Source of the DNA: Granulicella sp. L56
Lineage (GTDB): Bacteria; Acidobacteriota; Terriglobia; Terriglobales; Acidobacteriaceae
NCBI RefSeq assembly: GCF_009765835.1
Contig: NZ_LMUS01000006.1
Location: 888,438 to 952,437 of the forward strand
Length of the DNA stretch: 64,000 bases
Direction: 5' to 3'
The notes under the pieces are model-generated. The model ran no database searches. It had not been told where the DNA came from and was given only the letters and a program-made list of their open reading frames with translations. This document shows positions 55,554 through 64,000 of the stretch, piece by piece. Every line of letters starts with the position of its first letter. The stretch's first letter is position 1. The translations under genes were made by a program, and so were the position numbers.

Positions 55554-57221
55554 CTAAGCACGAAGCCCGTCAGCCGCCTGCGCCTTCTTCAGATCATCGC
55601 CCAGCACAATGGCGTCGGCAATCTCACGCATCGAGATCCGTCGCTGGCGGCTCTCTCGTTGCATCGTCCGATAAGCTTCGTCTTCGCTCATCGTCAGATC
55701 GCGCTGCAGAATGCCCTTCGCGCGGTCCACGGCCTTGCGCGTCTCCAGTCGCCCGGCCAGTTGCAGATTTTCCGTCTCCAGCCGCGTGCGCTCAATCTCT
55801 GCGCCCACCAGAAAGCCAAGCATCGAGAGCAGCCTGATCTCATTCGCTGTATGTTGATAGCTCATCTGGTGCTGCAGATTGATAACGCCGACGACCTTAC
55901 TCGCACAAAGAATAGGCGTGCACAAAATCGCCTCGAAGTGATCTTCCGGCAGATTGCGAAACATAACGAACCGCGGATCGTTCGACGCCCCCGAAGCGAT
56001 CGCCACCGGCTCGCGATGCTCCGCCACCCAGCCCGTGATTCCCTGCCCCAGCGACATGCCCAGATGGTCTACAAGGTCAGCATGAGGATTCTTCGATGCG
56101 CGCAGCACCAGCTTCTCGTTCTCCATCACATAGATGAAGCATGAGTCGCACGGAATCACCGTCGTCACAAAGTCAACGATGCTGCCCAGCACCACATGAA
56201 ACGAGTCCGCCGATGCAAGCCTGCTGCTGATCTCGTGCAAAAAGTCGATCGAGGTAAGCCCATCGCGAAATCCCGCCATCGTAGGCGTGGAGACAGCAAC
56301 GCGGCGCACCCCGGACTTCGGCTTCTCCACCGGCGCATCGTTGCTTTTATGAGAGGTCACCAGCGCACCGGCACCCGCGCTGCGTTTCCGCTCCAGGATC
56401 TTGCGGGAGTACTGCGCCGCCTCATTGACCAGGAAGCCCATCTTCGGATGCGATGGTTCAAAGTCGGGAGTGATTCCATAATGCGTCAACTCTTCCGACG
56501 TCGTAGGCCCAATCGAAACCACCACCATCGATATCAACCCGGCGCGCAGCTCCTCACGCATGACCATCTCCTCGGCTACCTGGAAGAGATGAATCACCTG
56601 CACTGCCGTCATAAACAGGACCACATCCACGCTGCCATTCGCAACGCCAAGCACGCACTCCCGCAGCGGCCCCACATCCTCAGGCAACGTCCACTGATAC
56701 ACAGGGACTTTCGTCACCTCACCACACTTCACCGTAAGCTCGGAGAGAAACTCAGGGTTCGAAGCCCCATACTCCTGCACCGCAACCCGCATCCCGCTCA
56801 ACTGGTCGCCAAACTCCGCTTCCATCGAGTGCATCATCTCGCGCCACGTATTCGGTTCAGGCGCAGTCACCGTTACCGGAATGTTTAGCTCACGCAACGC
56901 AGCAGCAGGCTTCGGTCCCCGCGCGCCGATCTTTACCGATCGCAGCGCTTCAATCAACTCTTCGCGGTTGAACTTCGTCTGGGCAATGTCCAGCAAAGCG
57001 CGCAACCCCAGGCCAGTCAAAAATACAACAAGATCGAACTTCCCATGCAGTAGTCCCTCTGCGAACTCAAGCGCCTGCTTGTTCGAGTCCAGCGGCGCTT
57101 CGCGCATCGCAGGCACGACAAAAGGTTCCCCGCCATAGGTGCGTATCAATTTCGCGATCTCTTTTGCGCGTCGCGATTCAAGCGACAGAACCCGCAATCC
57201 ATCAAAGCTCGCGTGAGTCAT
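55554..57221 (-). CDS. HemD-like / GAF / ANTAR three-domain regulator
   Basis: A 555-residue protein. Residues 1 to about 265 are a full uroporphyrinogen-III-synthase fold: LRVLSLESRRAKEIAKLIRTYG, LVVFLTGLGLRALLD, VVLFMTAVQVIHLF and VVSIGPTTSEELTHYGI. After a Ser/Lys-rich linker, residues about 320-480 are a GAF domain (ISSRLASADSFHVVLGSIVDFV, GQGITGWVAEHREPVAIA, VVGVINLQHQ). The end is an ANTAR RNA-binding domain (ETRKAVDRAKGILQRDLTMSEDEAYRTMQRESRQRR). ANTAR proteins are known antiterminators, and HemD-like domains occur in nitrite regulators such as Streptomyces NnaR. With a sirohaem reductase next door, I infer a sensor controlling nitrite/nitrate assimilation at the RNA level. Start 57221 follows ggggag. 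Confidence 0.88.
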   Translation of the reverse strand: MTHASFDGLRVLSLESRRAKEIAKLIRTYGGEPFVVPAMREAPLDSNKQALEFAEGLLHGKFDLVVFLTGLGLRALLDIAQTKFNREELIEALRSVKIGARGPKPAAALRELNIPVTVTAPEPNTWREMMHSMEAEFGDQLSGMRVAVQEYGASNPEFLSELTVKCGEVTKVPVYQWTLPEDVGPLRECVLGVANGSVDVVLFMTAVQVIHLFQVAEEMVMREELRAGLISMVVVSIGPTTSEELTHYGITPDFEPSHPKMGFLVNEAAQYSRKILERKRSAGAGALVTSHKSNDAPVEKPKSGVRRVAVSTPTMAGFRDGLTSIDFLHEISSRLASADSFHVVLGSIVDFVTTVIPCDSCFIYVMENEKLVLRASKNPHADLVDHLGMSLGQGITGWVAEHREPVAIASGASNDPRFVMFRNLPEDHFEAILCTPILCASKVVGVINLQHQMSYQHTANEIRLLSMLGFLVGAEIERTRLETENLQLAGRLETRKAVDRAKGILQRDLTMSEDEAYRTMQRESRQRRISMREIADAIVLGDDLKKAQAADGLRA

Positions 57222-57341
57222 CCATCTCCCCCAGCCAGTCTGCAATCACAAATTACTTTGCGCTGGCCACCTGTTACTCACAATTCTAGCGGCTCTGCAT
57301 CAACAATCACAGAGCCGCCGACAAAATCGTGCTGAACCGCT

Positions 57342-58181
57342 CTAGAAGATCAATCGCCCAGTCAGCACAAGGCCATGGTTATAAGCGTGATAAGTAGAAG
57401 TAGCGATCTGCATCCCTCCGCCAAACACCAGCCCCAGCCTGTCCTTCGGGTCTTTGCGCAACTTAATCCTGCTCACCATCATTCCAGGAGTTACAAAGGT
57501 CTGGTTCTTTCCATTGTTCGGCCCAAGATGGAAATAGCTCGCATTCACCTCAACCTCAGGCCAGAAGATCTTTGCCACCTGATATTGCGCGACCGTATTC
57601 CATACAATCGTTCTTCCAATCGTATGGACTGAGCCCACCGGCAAGGTTCCTCCCAGACTAGACTGAACATCGAACCGACCAAATCCTTTACCCAGAATCA
57701 ACGTTGGATTGATCGTAGTTCTGGCCGTCCCATTCTTATAACTTCCAGTCGCACCCGTAGCTGCCACTTGAAACGCAGTCGAGTAGTTTCCCTTCTCTGC
57801 GCCTCCAGCAAACGGACGATACTTCAATACCATCGAAAAATCTCCGGCTCCATCGATCGCCTTCGGAGTATTGTGCTCGACATACGGCGGCAGATTCACA
57901 TCCACCTCCGTCTTGTAGTACGGAATGAAGTTGAAACCCTTGCTATTGCCATAGTTCCACGTCGAAGTATGAGTCGAAGTCCATTGATGCAGCACATCGA
58001 CTCGCGCCAATTGCACGATACCAGACGGCGGAGCCACGACAGGCACAGCCCAGCCCGGCTGTTGAGCAGACGTCTTCCGTACTCGATCCTGCCACTTGTC
58101 GAAAAAATTATCCTGCGCGACAGTCAGTGCTCCGGACAACGCCTGCACGGAAAAAAGAACGGCTAAAATAACACGTTTCAT
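57342..58181 (-). CDS. outer-membrane beta-barrel protein, transporter-like
   Basis: A 279-residue protein with a signal peptide (residues 1-22, ending TVAQ). The remainder alternates short aromatic-ended strands (DFSMVLKYRPFAG, STAFQVAATGATGSY, TINPTLILGKGFGRFDVQSSLGGTLP, FWPEVEVNASYFHLGP) and ends with LVLTGRLIF, a terminal Phe as in outer-membrane barrels. It resembles the MetA-pathway/phenol-degradation type of barrel proteins. Its link to nitrogen metabolism rests only on position. Confidence 0.65.
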   Translation of the reverse strand: MKRVILAVLFSVQALSGALTVAQDNFFDKWQDRVRKTSAQQPGWAVPVVAPPSGIVQLARVDVLHQWTSTHTSTWNYGNSKGFNFIPYYKTEVDVNLPPYVEHNTPKAIDGAGDFSMVLKYRPFAGGAEKGNYSTAFQVAATGATGSYKNGTARTTINPTLILGKGFGRFDVQSSLGGTLPVGSVHTIGRTIVWNTVAQYQVAKIFWPEVEVNASYFHLGPNNGKNQTFVTPGMMVSRIKLRKDPKDRLGLVFGGGMQIATSTYHAYNHGLVLTGRLIF

Positions 58182-58543
58182 GGGCTCCCCTTGTAAGTGC
58201 CACAGTTAGGTACTTCGAATGAAGAGTTAGCCTCGCCCAGGGCAGCCATAGAGACAGAAATGCGTCCGGCTCGATAGTCGTGGCTTGACGCGAGAATTGA
58301 GTGTTGTTTGCTCAGGCGTAGAGCAGAAGAGTCCCATTGAAGCGGGATAGGTCGACACATCAAGGTGTCATTGAGCTGTGGGAGCTGTTACCAGTTTTGT
58401 AACATCGCAGCTCGAATGGAACAACAAACGAGCGCCTGTATAACAAAAACTTCTACTCCCCATCAAACTTTATTTGCCTCTTCCAATTCACCGCTTCGTC
58501 ACTTGCACTCATGCAAAGCCCACAGTAGTATCAAGTTCACCGA
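58182..58543. promoter_or_regulatory. hairpin-rich divergent region before the nitrite/sulfite reductase genes
   Basis: No convincing gene lies in these 362 bp. Three stem-loops follow one another: tccc/ggga around 58332-58347 (octaloop attgaagc, or hexaloop attgaa if one C bulges), gacac/gtgtc at 58354-58369 with hexaloop atcaag, and a two-part stem at 58382-58413 (gagctg/cagctc and gttac/gtaac). Tandem hexaloop hairpins are what ANTAR proteins recognise, though the loops here match the A1/G4 rule only in part. Confidence 0.45.
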
Positions 58544-58759
58544 ATGCTATTCAGCCCGATCTGGATAGCCGAAGAAGTTCAGCCCGGCACCATGCTGTGT
58601 CCCGGCTCCCACTCTCACATTGTTTCATGCTCCCTGACGAGCCTTGAATCCATCGCACCTGAGCTATCTCAGCGCGATGTTTATCTGGCCCGCATCTGGC
58701 TGCACTCAATCCAGATTGCGCTTCAGGATCTTCCGGCCTTCATCCGCCGCAGACCGTAA
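58544..58759 (+). CDS. possible small protein before nirA
   Basis: A 71-residue frame from ATG 58544 to TAA, ending 12 bp before the reductase start. About two thirds of the third codon positions are G or C, as in real genes here, and the second half (SLESIAPELSQRDVYLARIWLHSIQIALQDLP) could form helices. There is no good ribosome-binding site and I recognise no family. The same bases form several strong hairpins, so the region may instead be an RNA leader. Confidence 0.35.
   Translation: MLFSPIWIAEEVQPGTMLCPGSHSHIVSCSLTSLESIAPELSQRDVYLARIWLHSIQIALQDLPAFIRRRP
58546..58679 (+). promoter_or_regulatory. tandem hexaloop hairpins and terminator-like stem in the nirA leader
   Basis: Hairpin 1: a 9-bp stem 58546-58554 with 58561-58569, hexaloop cccgat. 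Hairpin 2: 58581-58590 with 58597-58607 (one mismatch, one bulge), hexaloop catgct. Both loops have G at position 4, as in ANTAR targets, but C instead of A at position 1. A third stem, catcgc (58651-58656) with gcgatg (58674-58679) and inner ctgag/ctcag, is followed by gtttat, like a weak terminator. The start codon is about 90 bases further on. Confidence 0.4.
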
Positions 58760-58771
58760 AGGAGATTCAGC

Positions 58772-60562
58772 ATGGAATCGCAAGCCACCACCACTCTGAT
58801 CGAGACGCCAGGCTTCTCCCTCGCGCAGCAGCAGTATCTGCAGGGCTTCTTCGCTGGCGTAGCGCAGCGTGGTGTCATGCCCTTCGTCGGCCACACCGTC
58901 GGCGGGCAGATCACCAACGACCCAACCTCCGGCCTCGTCAACCAGGCTGCCGAAGAAGCTGAGCCAACCTGGTTCGGCACACCTCTCTCCGACCTGTGCA
59001 AAGAAGAACGTTGGAAGCAGGAAGAAAACGCGCTCGACATCTGGGACAAGCTCGTCGCACACTCCAACGAAGACAAGGTACCCGCTCCCGACGATCTCTT
59101 CCGCTTCAAATTCCACGGTCTCTTCTACGTCTCTCCAGCGCAGGACTCTTTCATGCTGCGCATGCGCGTTCCCGGCGGCACCCTCAGCGCGCACCAGCTT
59201 CGCGGCCTCGCGCAGATGGCCGCCGACTGGGGCTCGGGCCGCGCCGATCTCACCACGCGCAGCAACCTCCAGATCCGCGAGTTCCAACCGAAAAATATCG
59301 TCAACGTCCTCTCCAAAATTCAGGACCTCGGCATGACCTCGCGCGGATCGGGTGCGGACAATATCCGCAACATCACCGCGTCTCCCATCACCGGCATCGA
59401 CCCGCACGAGCTCTACGACGTAGCGCCACTCGCCGACGCCCTCAACCGCTACATCCTCAACTCGCGCGATATGTACGGCCTGCCGCGCAAGTTCAACGTT
59501 GCCTTCGACAACGGCGGCTCCATCAGCGTCGTCGCCGACACCAACGACATCGGCTTCGTCGCCGTCCAGGTCAAAGAAGGCCACGGCATCCCCGCCGGCA
59601 TCTACTTCCGCATCCTGCTCTGCGGCATCACCGGACACAAGCAGTTCGCGACCGACTGCGGCCTTCTCCTGCGCCCCGATCAGACTGTCGCTGTCGCTGC
59701 AGCAATGATTCGCGTCTTCGCCGAACATGGTGATCGCACCGATCGCAAGAAGGCACGCCTCAAATACCTCATCGACAAATGGGGCGTCGAAAAGTTCATC
59801 TCCAAAACCGAAAAGCTTCTCGCCTTCCCTCTCATCCGCGTTCCCGCATCCGCTTGCGAGCCGCGCAAGCCCATCGACCGCGCCGGACACATTGGGGTGC
59901 ACGCACAGTCGCAGCCCGGCCTCCACTACATCGGCGTCTCCGTTCCCGTCGGCCGCCTGCCTGTCGATCAAATGCTATCCCTCGCGAACATCGCAGAGAC
60001 ATGCGGCACCAGCGAAGTTCGCCTCACCGTCTGGCAGAACCTCATCATCCCCAACATCCCCACAGCAAATCTCGAAGCCGCAAAGGCAGCAATCCTCACA
60101 GCCGGTCTCGCCTTTGAAGCAGGTACAGTCCTCAGCGGAACCGTAGCCTGCACCGGTAACAAGGGCTGCCGCTTCGCCGCCACAGACACAAAGACCCACG
60201 CCGTCGCGCTCGCCAACCTGCTCGATAGCCGCTTCAAGATCATGCAGCCCGTCAATCTGCACGTCACCGGTTGCTCTCACTCCTGCGCGCAGCACTACAT
60301 TGGAGACATCGGTCTCATGGGTGTCAAAGTCGGCGGCGAAGAAGGCTACCAGGTCGTCATCGGCGGCGGCTCCGACTGCGATCAGGGCATCGGTCGAGAG
60401 CTCATCCAGGCCATCAAGTTCAGCGACCTGCCACCAGTCATGGAGCAGTTCTTCCACTCCTACACCACGCAACGCATCCCGGAAGAATCCTTCCTCGACT
60501 TCACGCGCCGTCACTCCATCACCGAACTGCAATCGTTCTGCACAACACAGGAGCTCGTATGA
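58772..60562 (+). CDS. nirA: sirohaem nitrite/sulfite reductase (NirA type)
   Basis: A 596-residue enzyme containing sirohaem and a [4Fe-4S] cluster, which makes ammonia from nitrite (or sulfide from sulfite) in six electrons. The duplicated ferredoxin-like halves are visible (FHGLFYVSPAQDSFMLRMRVPGG and GLHYIGVSVPVGRL), with ADLTTRSNLQIREF for sirohaem contacts. The four cluster cysteines are in VACTGNKGC and VTGCSHSCAQHYIGDIG. An aaaggag ribosome-binding site precedes ATG 58772. The neighbours favour nitrite as substrate, but sulfite reductase cannot be excluded. The stop overlaps the next start (ATGA). Confidence 0.9.
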   Translation: MESQATTTLIETPGFSLAQQQYLQGFFAGVAQRGVMPFVGHTVGGQITNDPTSGLVNQAAEEAEPTWFGTPLSDLCKEERWKQEENALDIWDKLVAHSNEDKVPAPDDLFRFKFHGLFYVSPAQDSFMLRMRVPGGTLSAHQLRGLAQMAADWGSGRADLTTRSNLQIREFQPKNIVNVLSKIQDLGMTSRGSGADNIRNITASPITGIDPHELYDVAPLADALNRYILNSRDMYGLPRKFNVAFDNGGSISVVADTNDIGFVAVQVKEGHGIPAGIYFRILLCGITGHKQFATDCGLLLRPDQTVAVAAAMIRVFAEHGDRTDRKKARLKYLIDKWGVEKFISKTEKLLAFPLIRVPASACEPRKPIDRAGHIGVHAQSQPGLHYIGVSVPVGRLPVDQMLSLANIAETCGTSEVRLTVWQNLIIPNIPTANLEAAKAAILTAGLAFEAGTVLSGTVACTGNKGCRFAATDTKTHAVALANLLDSRFKIMQPVNLHVTGCSHSCAQHYIGDIGLMGVKVGGEEGYQVVIGGGSDCDQGIGRELIQAIKFSDLPPVMEQFFHSYTTQRIPEESFLDFTRRHSITELQSFCTTQELV

Positions 60563-62367
60563 CGATGCAAACTACCAGTCCGACTCTAGTGCCCTACATT
60601 CCCGACAACGCGCCCTTCAACAACGATCAGCGCGCATGGCTCAACGGCTTTCTCGCCGGAATCTTTTCTTCTGCGCAGCCCGCCATCGTCACCGAGGCCC
60701 CGCTGTCACTGAAGATCGCTGTGCTCTATGCCTCACAGTCCGGCACCGCCGAAGGCCTCGCACGCAAAGTCGCGAAGGATCTCAAATCCAAAGGTCACAT
60801 CGCCTCGCTCATCTCGCTCGAAGGCTACACGCCAGCTGCGCTCGCCGAAGAGCGCTACGCTATCCTCATCGCCAGCACCTACGGCGACGGCGACGCTCCC
60901 GATGCAGTCAAGCCTTTCTATGAGAAGCTCTGCATCGAGCACTTCCCCCGCTATCAGGATCTCTCCTACGCCGTGCTCGCCCTCGGCGATTCGCACTACG
61001 AACACTTCTGCAAGTTCGGCATCGACCTCGACAACAAGCTCGACTCACTCGGTGCCGTTCGTCTCCACGATCGCATCGACTGCGATGTCGATCTCGACGA
61101 TGCCTTCACAAACTGGAAGCAAGGCCTCTACTCCCGACTCGAATCCATCGTCTCCACCCGCCCGGCCAAGAACACGCCGCCGCCTTCAACAAAAATCATT
61201 GCACCCACACCAAAGACCATCGCGAGCGAAACCAGCACCTCCACCTACACTCGCGAGAATCCCTTCCTCGCGCCTCTGGTAGACAAGCACCCACTCACCC
61301 GCGAAGTCTCCAGCAAGCTCACCATGCACATGGCCTTCTCCATCGCCGACTCGAACCTGAAGTACGAGGCCGGAGATGCCTGCGGTGTCGTTCCACAAAA
61401 CGACTACCAGCTTGTCGGAGACATCATCACCATGCTGAACTTCAGCCCCCAGGCTCCCGTGCAGCTGCCAAAAGCCGGAACCACAACGCTGATCGATGCA
61501 CTCACCAACCACCTGCAGATCACTCGCCTCACCCGCAAGATGATCGAGGCCTACGCCACCATCGGCAACTGCAAGCCGCTCTTCGGTCTGCTCGTCCCTG
61601 AACAGCAGGCGCACCTCGAAAAATATACCTGCGACCGCGGCCTCATCGATCTCCTTCACGACTATCCCGGCGTCCTGCACAATCCCGCGGACCTCGTCGC
61701 CATGCTGCCCAGGCTCGCGCCGCGTCTCTACTCCATCTCATCGAGCCCCTATGCGCACGCTGGCGAAATCCACACCACCATCGCCGTCGTCCGCTATCGT
61801 TCGCACAACCGCGAGCGCGGCGGCGTCTGCTCCACCCTGCTTGCCGACCGCACCAACACAGGCGAACGTCGTGCCATCTACATTCAGCCGAACAAGAAAT
61901 TTCGTCTACCCCAGCAGTCCGACGCACCCATCATCATGATCGGCCCCGGCACCGGCATCGCGCCCTTCCGCGCCTTCCTTCATCAGCGTCGCGCTCTCTC
62001 CGCCACTGGAAAGAACTGGCTCTTTTTCGGCGAGCGCAGCGCCGCAACCGACTTCCTCTACCGCGACGAGCTCGAGTCCATGCTCAGCGACAAGCACCTC
62101 ACCCATCTCGATCTCGCCTTCTCCCGCGACCAGGAACACAAGGTCTACGTGCAAGACAAGATGCTCGAACAGGCACCGCGCTTCTGGTCATGGCTACAAG
62201 ACGGAGCCAGCATCTACGTCTGCGGCGACGCCGCCCGCATGGCGAAAGATGTCGATGCCACTCTCCGCAGCATCGTCGCCCAACAAGGCAACCTCGACGC
62301 AGAAGCCGCAACCGAATACGTCCAGACATTGAAAGACGACCACCGCTACCACCGCGACGTCTACTAA
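60559..62367 (+). CDS. NADPH-dependent sulfite/nitrite reductase flavoprotein (CysJ-like)
   Basis: A 602-residue diflavin reductase. Residues 1-50 form a short leader (FNNDQRAWLNGFLAGIFS). A flavodoxin-type FMN domain follows (VLYASQSGTAEGLARKVA, ASTYGDGDAPDAV, LALGDSHYEHFCKFG). After a Pro/Thr linker come the FAD domain (RLYSISSSPYAHAGEIHTTIAVV, GGVCSTLLAD) and the NADP domain (MIGPGTGIAPFRAFL, WLFFGER, YVCGDAARMAKDV). It takes electrons from NADPH and most likely passes them to the reductase encoded just upstream, with which it overlaps by 4 bp. Confidence 0.92.
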   Translation: MTMQTTSPTLVPYIPDNAPFNNDQRAWLNGFLAGIFSSAQPAIVTEAPLSLKIAVLYASQSGTAEGLARKVAKDLKSKGHIASLISLEGYTPAALAEERYAILIASTYGDGDAPDAVKPFYEKLCIEHFPRYQDLSYAVLALGDSHYEHFCKFGIDLDNKLDSLGAVRLHDRIDCDVDLDDAFTNWKQGLYSRLESIVSTRPAKNTPPPSTKIIAPTPKTIASETSTSTYTRENPFLAPLVDKHPLTREVSSKLTMHMAFSIADSNLKYEAGDACGVVPQNDYQLVGDIITMLNFSPQAPVQLPKAGTTTLIDALTNHLQITRLTRKMIEAYATIGNCKPLFGLLVPEQQAHLEKYTCDRGLIDLLHDYPGVLHNPADLVAMLPRLAPRLYSISSSPYAHAGEIHTTIAVVRYRSHNRERGGVCSTLLADRTNTGERRAIYIQPNKKFRLPQQSDAPIIMIGPGTGIAPFRAFLHQRRALSATGKNWLFFGERSAATDFLYRDELESMLSDKHLTHLDLAFSRDQEHKVYVQDKMLEQAPRFWSWLQDGASIYVCGDAARMAKDVDATLRSIVAQQGNLDAEAATEYVQTLKDDHRYHRDVY

Positions 62368-62440: not shown

Positions 62441-62521
62441 TGAGGAACCCCTCACCATCGACATACCGCTTAAGCCTTATCAGTGATTGACAGCAACTCA
62501 CCGAAAGAAAGGAGGGAACAA

Positions 62522-64000
62522 GTGTCTCTACCTCTACAAGAACTCGCAGAGTCTTCCGCCGCTGAATCCATCGTGCGCATGACCTTCGCCGACCTCGGCC
62601 AGCCCTCCATACCCGCGGCAACCGTCGTCACTTCGCTCATCCCCACACGCGCTCTCGAAGCCGGAGAACAGTACCGCTTCCACTTCGACATGACCAAATG
62701 CATCGGCTGCCGCTCCTGCGAGATCGCCTGCAATGAGCAGAACGGCAACCCCGCCGACATTCGCTGGCGCCGCATCGGCGAAATCGAAGGCGGCACCTAC
62801 CCCGACACGCTTCGCCACTATCTCTCTATGGGCTGCAACCACTGCCTCGACGCCGAGTGCGTCAAAGGCTGCCCCGTCGACGCCTACACCAAAGACCCCA
62901 TCACCGGCATCGTCCTGCACTCCGCCGACGCCTGTATCGGTTGCCAGTATTGCGTCTGGAACTGCCCTTACTCCGTTCCGCAGTTCAACGCCGAGCGGGG
63001 AGTGGTCGGCAAATGCGACATGTGCCACGGCCGCCTCACCGACGGACACGAACCAGCCTGCGTCAACGCCTGTCCCGAAGCTGCCATCGAGATCGAAATC
63101 GTCAACACCACCGCATGGCGCATCGACTACGCCTCTGCGGAGTCGCCCGGCATGCCCGCCGCTGGCCACACCATCTCCACCACGCGCATCACGCTTCCTC
63201 CCAACTCCACCACGAAACTAGAGCGCGTAGACATAGGCCGCATCCAACCCGAGCACGCCCATCTCTCGCTCGTCTTCATGACGACGCTCATCCAGTCCGT
63301 TACCGGCTCGCTCATCTTCGCTCTGCTCTTTCGCGCAGCGCAGCCCATGCTACTCACCATCCTGCTCGTCATCACCAGCATCGCGCTCAACATCTCCGTC
63401 TTCCACCTTGGCCGCCCCGCCTATGCATGGCGAGCACTCAAGATGTGGCGCCGCTCCTGGCTTAGCCGCGAAGTCCTGCTCTTCGGCCTCTTCTTCGGCG
63501 CTATCGCCACATTCACCTTCGCCACATGGCTGCTCACGCCATCCATCGCATCGATCCTGCACAGCGCTTTCCTGCAGCATCTTCAGGTATTCTCCTTCAC
63601 CTCGAACTTGCTCACAACAATCGGCTGCGTAGCCGCCCTCTTCGGCGTCGCAGGCACCATCGCCAGTGCCTTCATCTATCTCGTTCCCGCGCGTCCCGCA
63701 TGGAACATGATCCACACACCCATCGACTTCCTTCTCAGCAGTCTGCTCATCGGTTCCACGCTTCCCATCACACTCAACTGGATCATCAAAAACCTCAACC
63801 GCATTACGCTACTGCAACCGCTCCATCTGCAAACCATCAACGCCTTTCCCGTATGGCTCACAGCCGTCGCAGCGATTCCATGGATCACCAACCATGCCAT
63901 CCGTCTCATTCGCCTCAATCGCTCCAGCCTCTTTGAAGAGCGAGCCACCGCCGAACTTCTCGGCACACAAAACTTCCGTCCCGCCGTCATCGTCACCTTC
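62522..64000 (+). CDS. fused DmsB-DmsC-like iron-sulfur and membrane-anchor protein, 3' end outside window
   Basis: 493 codons run to the window edge without a stop. The GTG at 62522 follows an aaaggaggg ribosome-binding site. Residues about 55-215 carry four [4Fe-4S] motif sets: CIGCRSCEIAC (60-70), CNHCLDAECVKGCP, CIGCQYCVWNCP and CDMCHGRL...ACVNACP. From about residue 245 there are several membrane helices of the DmsC type (FMTTLIQSVTGSLIFALLF, LFGLFFGAIATFTFATWLL, LIGSTLPITLNWII). Usually DmsB and DmsC are separate proteins. Such units feed a molybdopterin reductase, here perhaps a nitrate reductase encoded beyond the window. Confidence 0.88.
   Translation, partial: MSLPLQELAESSAAESIVRMTFADLGQPSIPAATVVTSLIPTRALEAGEQYRFHFDMTKCIGCRSCEIACNEQNGNPADIRWRRIGEIEGGTYPDTLRHYLSMGCNHCLDAECVKGCPVDAYTKDPITGIVLHSADACIGCQYCVWNCPYSVPQFNAERGVVGKCDMCHGRLTDGHEPACVNACPEAAIEIEIVNTTAWRIDYASAESPGMPAAGHTISTTRITLPPNSTTKLERVDIGRIQPEHAHLSLVFMTTLIQSVTGSLIFALLFRAAQPMLLTILLVITSIALNISVFHLGRPAYAWRALKMWRRSWLSREVLLFGLFFGAIATFTFATWLLTPSIASILHSAFLQHLQVFSFTSNLLTTIGCVAALFGVAGTIASAFIYLVPARPAWNMIHTPIDFLLSSLLIGSTLPITLNWIIKNLNRITLLQPLHLQTINAFPVWLTAVAAIPWITNHAIRLIRLNRSSLFEERATAELLGTQNFRPAVIVTF

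Follow-up and report, generated by a model that had tools for sequence, protein, structure and literature searches.

A HEM4-GAF-ANTAR protein beside nitrite assimilation genes

The window that we analysed, a 64,000-nucleotide stretch of the Granulicella sp. L56 genome, carries on its minus strand the gene for a three-domain protein, here called HGA, and on its plus strand a predicted operon that begins with a sirohaem nitrite reductase gene. The genes at the locus are:

55554..57221, minus strand: HGA (HEM4-GAF-ANTAR, putative regulator), 555 aa, from Pfam matches, orthologues and fold
57342..58181, minus strand: porin-like/outer-membrane protein gene, 279 aa, labelled from its sequence character and its alginate-porin-like replacement elsewhere
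58772..60562, plus strand: nirA, sirohaem nitrite reductase (NF007126), heading the predicted target operon
60559..62367, plus strand: CysJ-like flavoprotein reductase (TIGR01931, 599 bits, under the curated cut-off)
62483..64000, plus strand: DmsBC-like iron-sulphur/membrane electron-transfer protein, continuing past the window end

The original prediction had read the gene at 55554-57221 as a fusion of HemD-like, GAF and ANTAR domains, and Pfam bears this out. HEM4 (6.7e-35, residues 21-265), GAF (1.3e-12, residues 342-476) and ANTAR (3.6e-17, residues 487-539) all score well over their curated cut-offs, in order and without overlap, the ANTAR match on which that prediction hinged among them. 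This is the sole ANTAR domain of the 4.7-Mb genome, which is 99.9% complete. The start of HGA is the ATG at 57221, with which the orthologue starts align, and not the TTG at 57245 to which the mechanical open reading frame extends. An AlphaFold2 model built from 25 orthologues (mean pLDDT 78.7) predicts a uroporphyrinogen-III-synthase fold and a GAF fold, with a long helical region at the C-terminus; its best PDB matches are uroporphyrinogen-III synthases and GAF domains, with 3d8r as the top Foldseek match (E 1.5e-16).

Between HGA and nirA lies the porin-like gene, which had been overlooked. It is directly upstream of HGA on the same strand with a gap of 120 nt, making co-transcription of the two likely, and it is a conserved neighbour of HGA, replaced in other genomes by an alginate-porin-like gene. 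Its product has no Pfam or NCBIfam match. NirA is matched best by NF007126 (827 bits, cut-off 523), and beyond the window the DmsBC-like gene is followed by genes for a NasC-like nitrate reductase and a NarK-like transporter; the DmsBC-like, NasC-like and NarK-like names were assigned from sequence rather than from a Pfam run.

The original prediction also proposed looking for another hemD in the genome. One exists, at G000:C8:51514, and is probably the housekeeping HemD: it scores 212.7 bits with the general HEM4 model, compared with 123.2 bits for HGA, and the two are extremely distant in the tree. The NF005568 model gave HGA about 133-134 bits and the separate, true HemD 41.5 bits, with a cut-off of 273 and an HGA match running only up to position 272/381. 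An NnaR-type reading of the HEM4 part, drawn from that score, was dropped as too strong because HemE fusions of this subfamily occur elsewhere. HGA itself ends in GAF-ANTAR, whereas NnaR joins HemD to an OmpR-type winged helix. In other Terriglobia families (L235-L239), we observed this HEM4 subfamily fused to uroporphyrinogen decarboxylase in HemD-HemE proteins of 666-737 aa.

Such fusions in other acidobacteria, and the sirohaem enzyme adjoining HGA, would suit a HEM4 part that is an active uroporphyrinogen-III synthase supplying sirohaem for NirA, leaving regulation to the GAF-ANTAR part alone. We think this unlikely given the separate HemD, the clustering of the HGA HEM4 apart from the HemE-linked clade, and the related HemD domain of NnaR, which is reported to be catalytically inactive, its signal unknown (PMC6277429, PMC11162112). 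We favour a sensory role for the HEM4 part of HGA. NnaR is the nearest functional parallel for this domain, and how HemD-like domains in regulators sense has been stated, for NnaR, to be an open question (PMC11162112).

Conservation and origin of the fusion

The HGA and nirA neighbourhood recurs in more than 20 genomes of the genus, mostly with the same downstream genes. Conversely, NirA (at least 65% identity) is missing from 16 of the 17 genomes of the genus that lack an ANTAR domain, the lone exception being a 73% complete assembly. Within this one genus, nirA co-occurs near-perfectly with HGA.

Our survey covered 79 relatives from named genomes. All but two carry acidobacterial titles, the two being a MAG labelled Rhodanobacteraceae and an entry titled simply 'bacterium'. 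Fifty are intact HEM4-GAF-ANTAR fusions, with NirA as neighbour in 29, NirB in four and neither within the fetched stretch in 17, for some of these because the contig ends. The fusion is thus not found only far from nitrite/nitrate genes, the outcome that would have spoken against the original prediction, as 33/50 adjoin nirA or nirB.

The fusion is conserved across Acidobacteriaceae, and outside that family HEM4 and GAF-ANTAR are separate genes. A gp6 acidobacterium has the gene order nasC-nirB-nirD-HEM4-GAF-ANTAR (nirD read from sequence), and several Terriglobia carry HEM4 and GAF-ANTAR as adjacent separate genes. G069 belongs to the same order and another family; there, nirB is followed on its own strand by a HEM4 gene that stands alone, with a GAF-ANTAR gene on the other side. 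Because neighbours that are separate elsewhere are fused here, these arrangements argue independently for a joint function of the HEM4 and ANTAR parts, and the recurring nirB/nirA surroundings point to the nitrite genes as what they act on.

One paralogous HGA clade (10/41 rows) is never near nirA. Its members (L055, L058, L063, L064, L067-L072) lie among SPFH, SPOR, plsC and Mpl genes or in a cytochrome/two-component cluster; targets of this clade, clade B, were looked for and none was found.

Candidate leader RNAs

The original prediction placed the target RNA of HGA within 58180-58772. This interval does hold a candidate RNA, in the form of two divergent leaders, one for nirA and one for the porin-like gene:

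58583-58652, plus strand: nirA operon leader with P1-P2
58546..58569, plus strand: nirA leader hairpin P0, GCTATTCAG-CCCGAT-CTGGATAGC, loop C1/G4
58586..58601, plus strand: nirA leader hairpin P1, GGCAC-CATGCT-GTGTC, loop C1/G4
58629..58642, plus strand: nirA leader hairpin P2, GCTC-CCTGAC-GAGC, loop C1/G4, extended by TTCA/TGAA
58310-58370, minus strand: porin leader with P1-P2
58354..58370, minus strand: porin leader hairpin P1, GACAC-CTTGAT-GTGTC, loop C1/G4
58310..58324, minus strand: porin leader hairpin P2, GCTC-TACGCCT-GAGC, 7-nt loop, G4

Two hairpins with hexaloops or near-hexaloops are common to the nirA operon leader, the porin leader and the leader of an unlinked nitrite transporter gene. 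The porin pair is kept in most porin loci, and P0, the third hairpin ahead of P1, is found in the near lineage of the window. Alignment of nirA leaders from 23 loci placed conserved P1 and P2 upstream of the gene and downstream of a promoter-like element, with hexanucleotide C1/G4 loops in both hairpins of most leaders. Linkers between P1 and P2 span about 17-37 nt. In roughly one nirA leader in three, mostly Terriglobus-like ones, P2 is present and P1 is not clear.

A pair count over 15 leaders gave 91% standard pairs, with three P1 pairs changed on both sides. The P1 stem covaries (CAC/GTG, TAC/GTA, GAC/GTC, TGC/GCA); the P2 stem, GCTC/GAGC, is too invariant for a covariation test. A set of 33 P1 sequences was chosen by a pattern that fixed the loop C and G plus the inner pairs, so that only the outer pairs are a fair test, and outer pairs 4 and 5 were paired in 31/33, as A-U, G-C, G-U or U-G. 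When the loop was not forced, GCTC-N6-GAGC occurred in 38/42 nirA leaders, all 38 with C1/G4 loops, and the best upstream hexaloop hairpin was C1/G4 in 18/31 versus 7% in shuffles, counts that come from related sequences and so are not independent.

We built a covariance model, R1, from 15 nirA leaders and scanned it over 100 genomes. Besides nirA leaders, R1 matched a site in the Granulicella sp. L56 genome immediately ahead of nirC, an FNT nitrite/formate transporter gene (site E 0.01; gene Pfam 1.5e-66), a site thereby found blind, and the nirB leader of G069, 1.9 kb from that genome's GAF-ANTAR gene (E 0.0034). A few further weak matches were taken as chance. In G329 the cluster itself contains the FNT gene, placed between regulator and porin, with a P1/P2 pair in the FNT leader.

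The pattern CACCNNGNNGTG-N12-42-GCTC-N6-7-GAGC has only three matches in the Granulicella sp. L56 genome, in the leaders of nirC, porin and nirA; it was written after the leaders had been seen, and so shows that the genome has no other match rather than being an independent discovery. Reversed controls gave no match in this genome and 17 across 61 genomes. No motif was found in the nirB leader of G061, a genome with a GAF-ANTAR gene elsewhere, an Rfam search returned nothing relevant, and a search for canonical A1/G4 dual hexaloops ahead of nirA found none. A class-wide C1/G4 loop pattern was set aside as mostly background outside the family, judging by its reversed control. The canonical A1 loop is confined to an extra hairpin in a few lineages: upstream of P1, the nirA leaders of L059, L319 and L320 have AACGCC-ACCGAY-GGCGTT, with an A1/G4 loop.

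A consensus scan of 58160-58900 found no intrinsic terminator, such as P2 overlaps in known ANTAR RNAs, and a consensus scan for a standard sigma-70 promoter found none. By its folding energy the nirA leader does not stand out (z -1.2). Left unconstrained, several nirA leaders fold at minimum energy with the P2 arms in other pairings, and forcing P2 costs about 0.5-6 kcal/mol; such alternative pairing would suit a switch, although energies alone are weak evidence. Many leaders also have a further, seemingly covarying helix 3' of P2 ahead of nirA (58640-58700; variants CATCGC/GCGATG, CACCG/CGGTG and CGCAG/CTGCG), possibly the structure that competes in a switch.

That the scan found no terminator would also suit direct translational control of the leaders by HGA, in place of antitermination. 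The distance from P2 to the start varies from about 50 to >100 nt, and mycobacterial ANTAR RNAs overlapping ribosome sites have been reported (mentioned in PMC8934654). Still, P1 and P2 are clear of the ribosome site in every leader read and characterised ANTAR systems act on termination, leaving this account doubtful. It is very unlikely that the repeats serve a different nitrogen regulator as DNA operators, with HGA merely nearby: the near-invariance of GCTC-N6-GAGC is as expected of an operator, but both hairpins lie downstream of the promoter-like element, the loop keeps its asymmetric C..G where P1 stems vary on both sides, the loop-plus-stem format and G4 fit RNA bound by ANTAR domains, and the motif tracks HGA or GAF-ANTAR genes.

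RNA recognition and comparison with known regulators

Characterised ANTAR RNAs have A1/G4 loops. The pair of hexanucleotide-loop hairpins in the leader is present in nirA, nirB and nirC, the porin P2 loop having 7 nt, and the loops have G4; position 1 is C in every nirA P2 loop of the set above and mostly C in P1. In the EutV-RNA structure, R142, K149, E160 and Y164 hold G4 and M172 plugs the loop (PMC8934654). Equivalents of the four G4-contact residues are kept in 41/41 HGA orthologues, the M172 equivalent is Arg in 41/41, and the R177 equivalent is Ser or Thr in nearly all. The same Arg is found in the G069 GAF-ANTAR protein, whose neighbour nirB has C1/G4 loops, and Met is kept at the loop-plug position in several sister-lineage GAF-ANTARs. 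Our guess is that the Met-to-Arg swap explains C1 in place of A1.

We consider it likely, from these sequence comparisons, that HGA is an ANTAR RNA-binding regulator of nitrite/nitrate assimilation with a HEM4 and GAF sensory part and a variant dual-hexaloop RNA. The nirA, porin and nirC leaders are its probable candidate targets, and a probable RNA target is what is new over the original prediction, which had tied HGA to transcription elongation of the sirohaem enzyme. The tie to that enzyme is now stronger than position alone would make it because of the conserved leaders, the nirA co-occurrence and the unfused neighbours in sister lineages; the parts of the prediction on tetrapyrrole or nitrite sensing by the HemD-like domain and on an elongation output are more tentative, the latter given that no intrinsic terminator was found.

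HGA would recognise a leader RNA of two short hairpins (three in the nirA leader of the window) with loops of 6-7 nt, G4 and usually C1. Antitermination is the known action of the ANTAR family, and an HGA dimer may bind the hairpins in nascent RNA and allow read-through when the cell is to assimilate nitrite/nitrate. The signal would come from the HEM4 domain, perhaps on binding hydroxymethylbilane, uroporphyrinogen III or a similar sirohaem-supply intermediate, and the GAF domain perhaps reports redox or nitrogen oxides. P2 binding is probably in competition with another fold lying further 3' in the leader. As no intrinsic terminator was found, Rho-dependent termination, pausing or translation may be the step affected. 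Since HGA is downstream of the porin leader, it probably controls its own transcript. We offer only tentatively the fuller scheme, in which a HemD-derived sensor of sirohaem-precursor/nitrite status would drive an ANTAR domain on a separate C1/G4 RNA class via the Met-to-Arg plug, controlling a three-transcript nitrite regulon (porin plus regulator, nirA-nas operon and nirC) without an intrinsic terminator.

HGA resembles NasR, the nitrate-sensing ANTAR antiterminator of Klebsiella, in its ANTAR output and in the leader of a nitrate/nitrite assimilation operon. The sensor of NasR is a nitrate-sensing NIT domain, whereas HGA has HEM4 and GAF, C1/G4 leader loops and no intrinsic terminator that we found. 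NasS-NasT, of Paracoccus, Bradyrhizobium and others, likewise pairs an ANTAR protein with nitrate/nitrite genes and leader RNA, but there a separate sensor, NasS, holds NasT (PMC3795266), whereas the putative sensors of HGA are fused to ANTAR. Enterococcus EutV shares with HGA the G4-contact residues and has the dual hexaloop RNA and G4 read-out proposed for HGA; it differs in a REC sensor, A1/G4 loops, a short linker and P2 embedded in the terminator, and lengthening the linker by 20 nt abolished eut antitermination (PMC8934654). The candidate HGA leaders differ in loop, in linker length and in the terminator. NnaR, the actinobacterial HemD-OmpR regulator of nitrite/nitrate assimilation, has a HemD-like N-terminal domain as HGA does and a DNA-binding winged helix in place of GAF and the RNA-binding ANTAR, and it has been reported only from Actinomycetes (PMC11162112).

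Our literature search, which covered a limited collection of papers, found none joining ANTAR, GAF and uroporphyrinogen-III synthase. Because a HemD-like domain is here joined to an RNA-binding output for which a candidate RNA is defined, signal, binding and output can each be tested in vitro. If our reading of HGA is right, the ANTAR family would gain a sensor type and a loop class, and a widespread group of soil bacteria a probable switch for nitrogen assimilation. Sister lineages also carry tandem GAF-ANTAR proteins (L019, L165-L168, L173-L176), of which L176 looks like REC-GAF-ANTAR.
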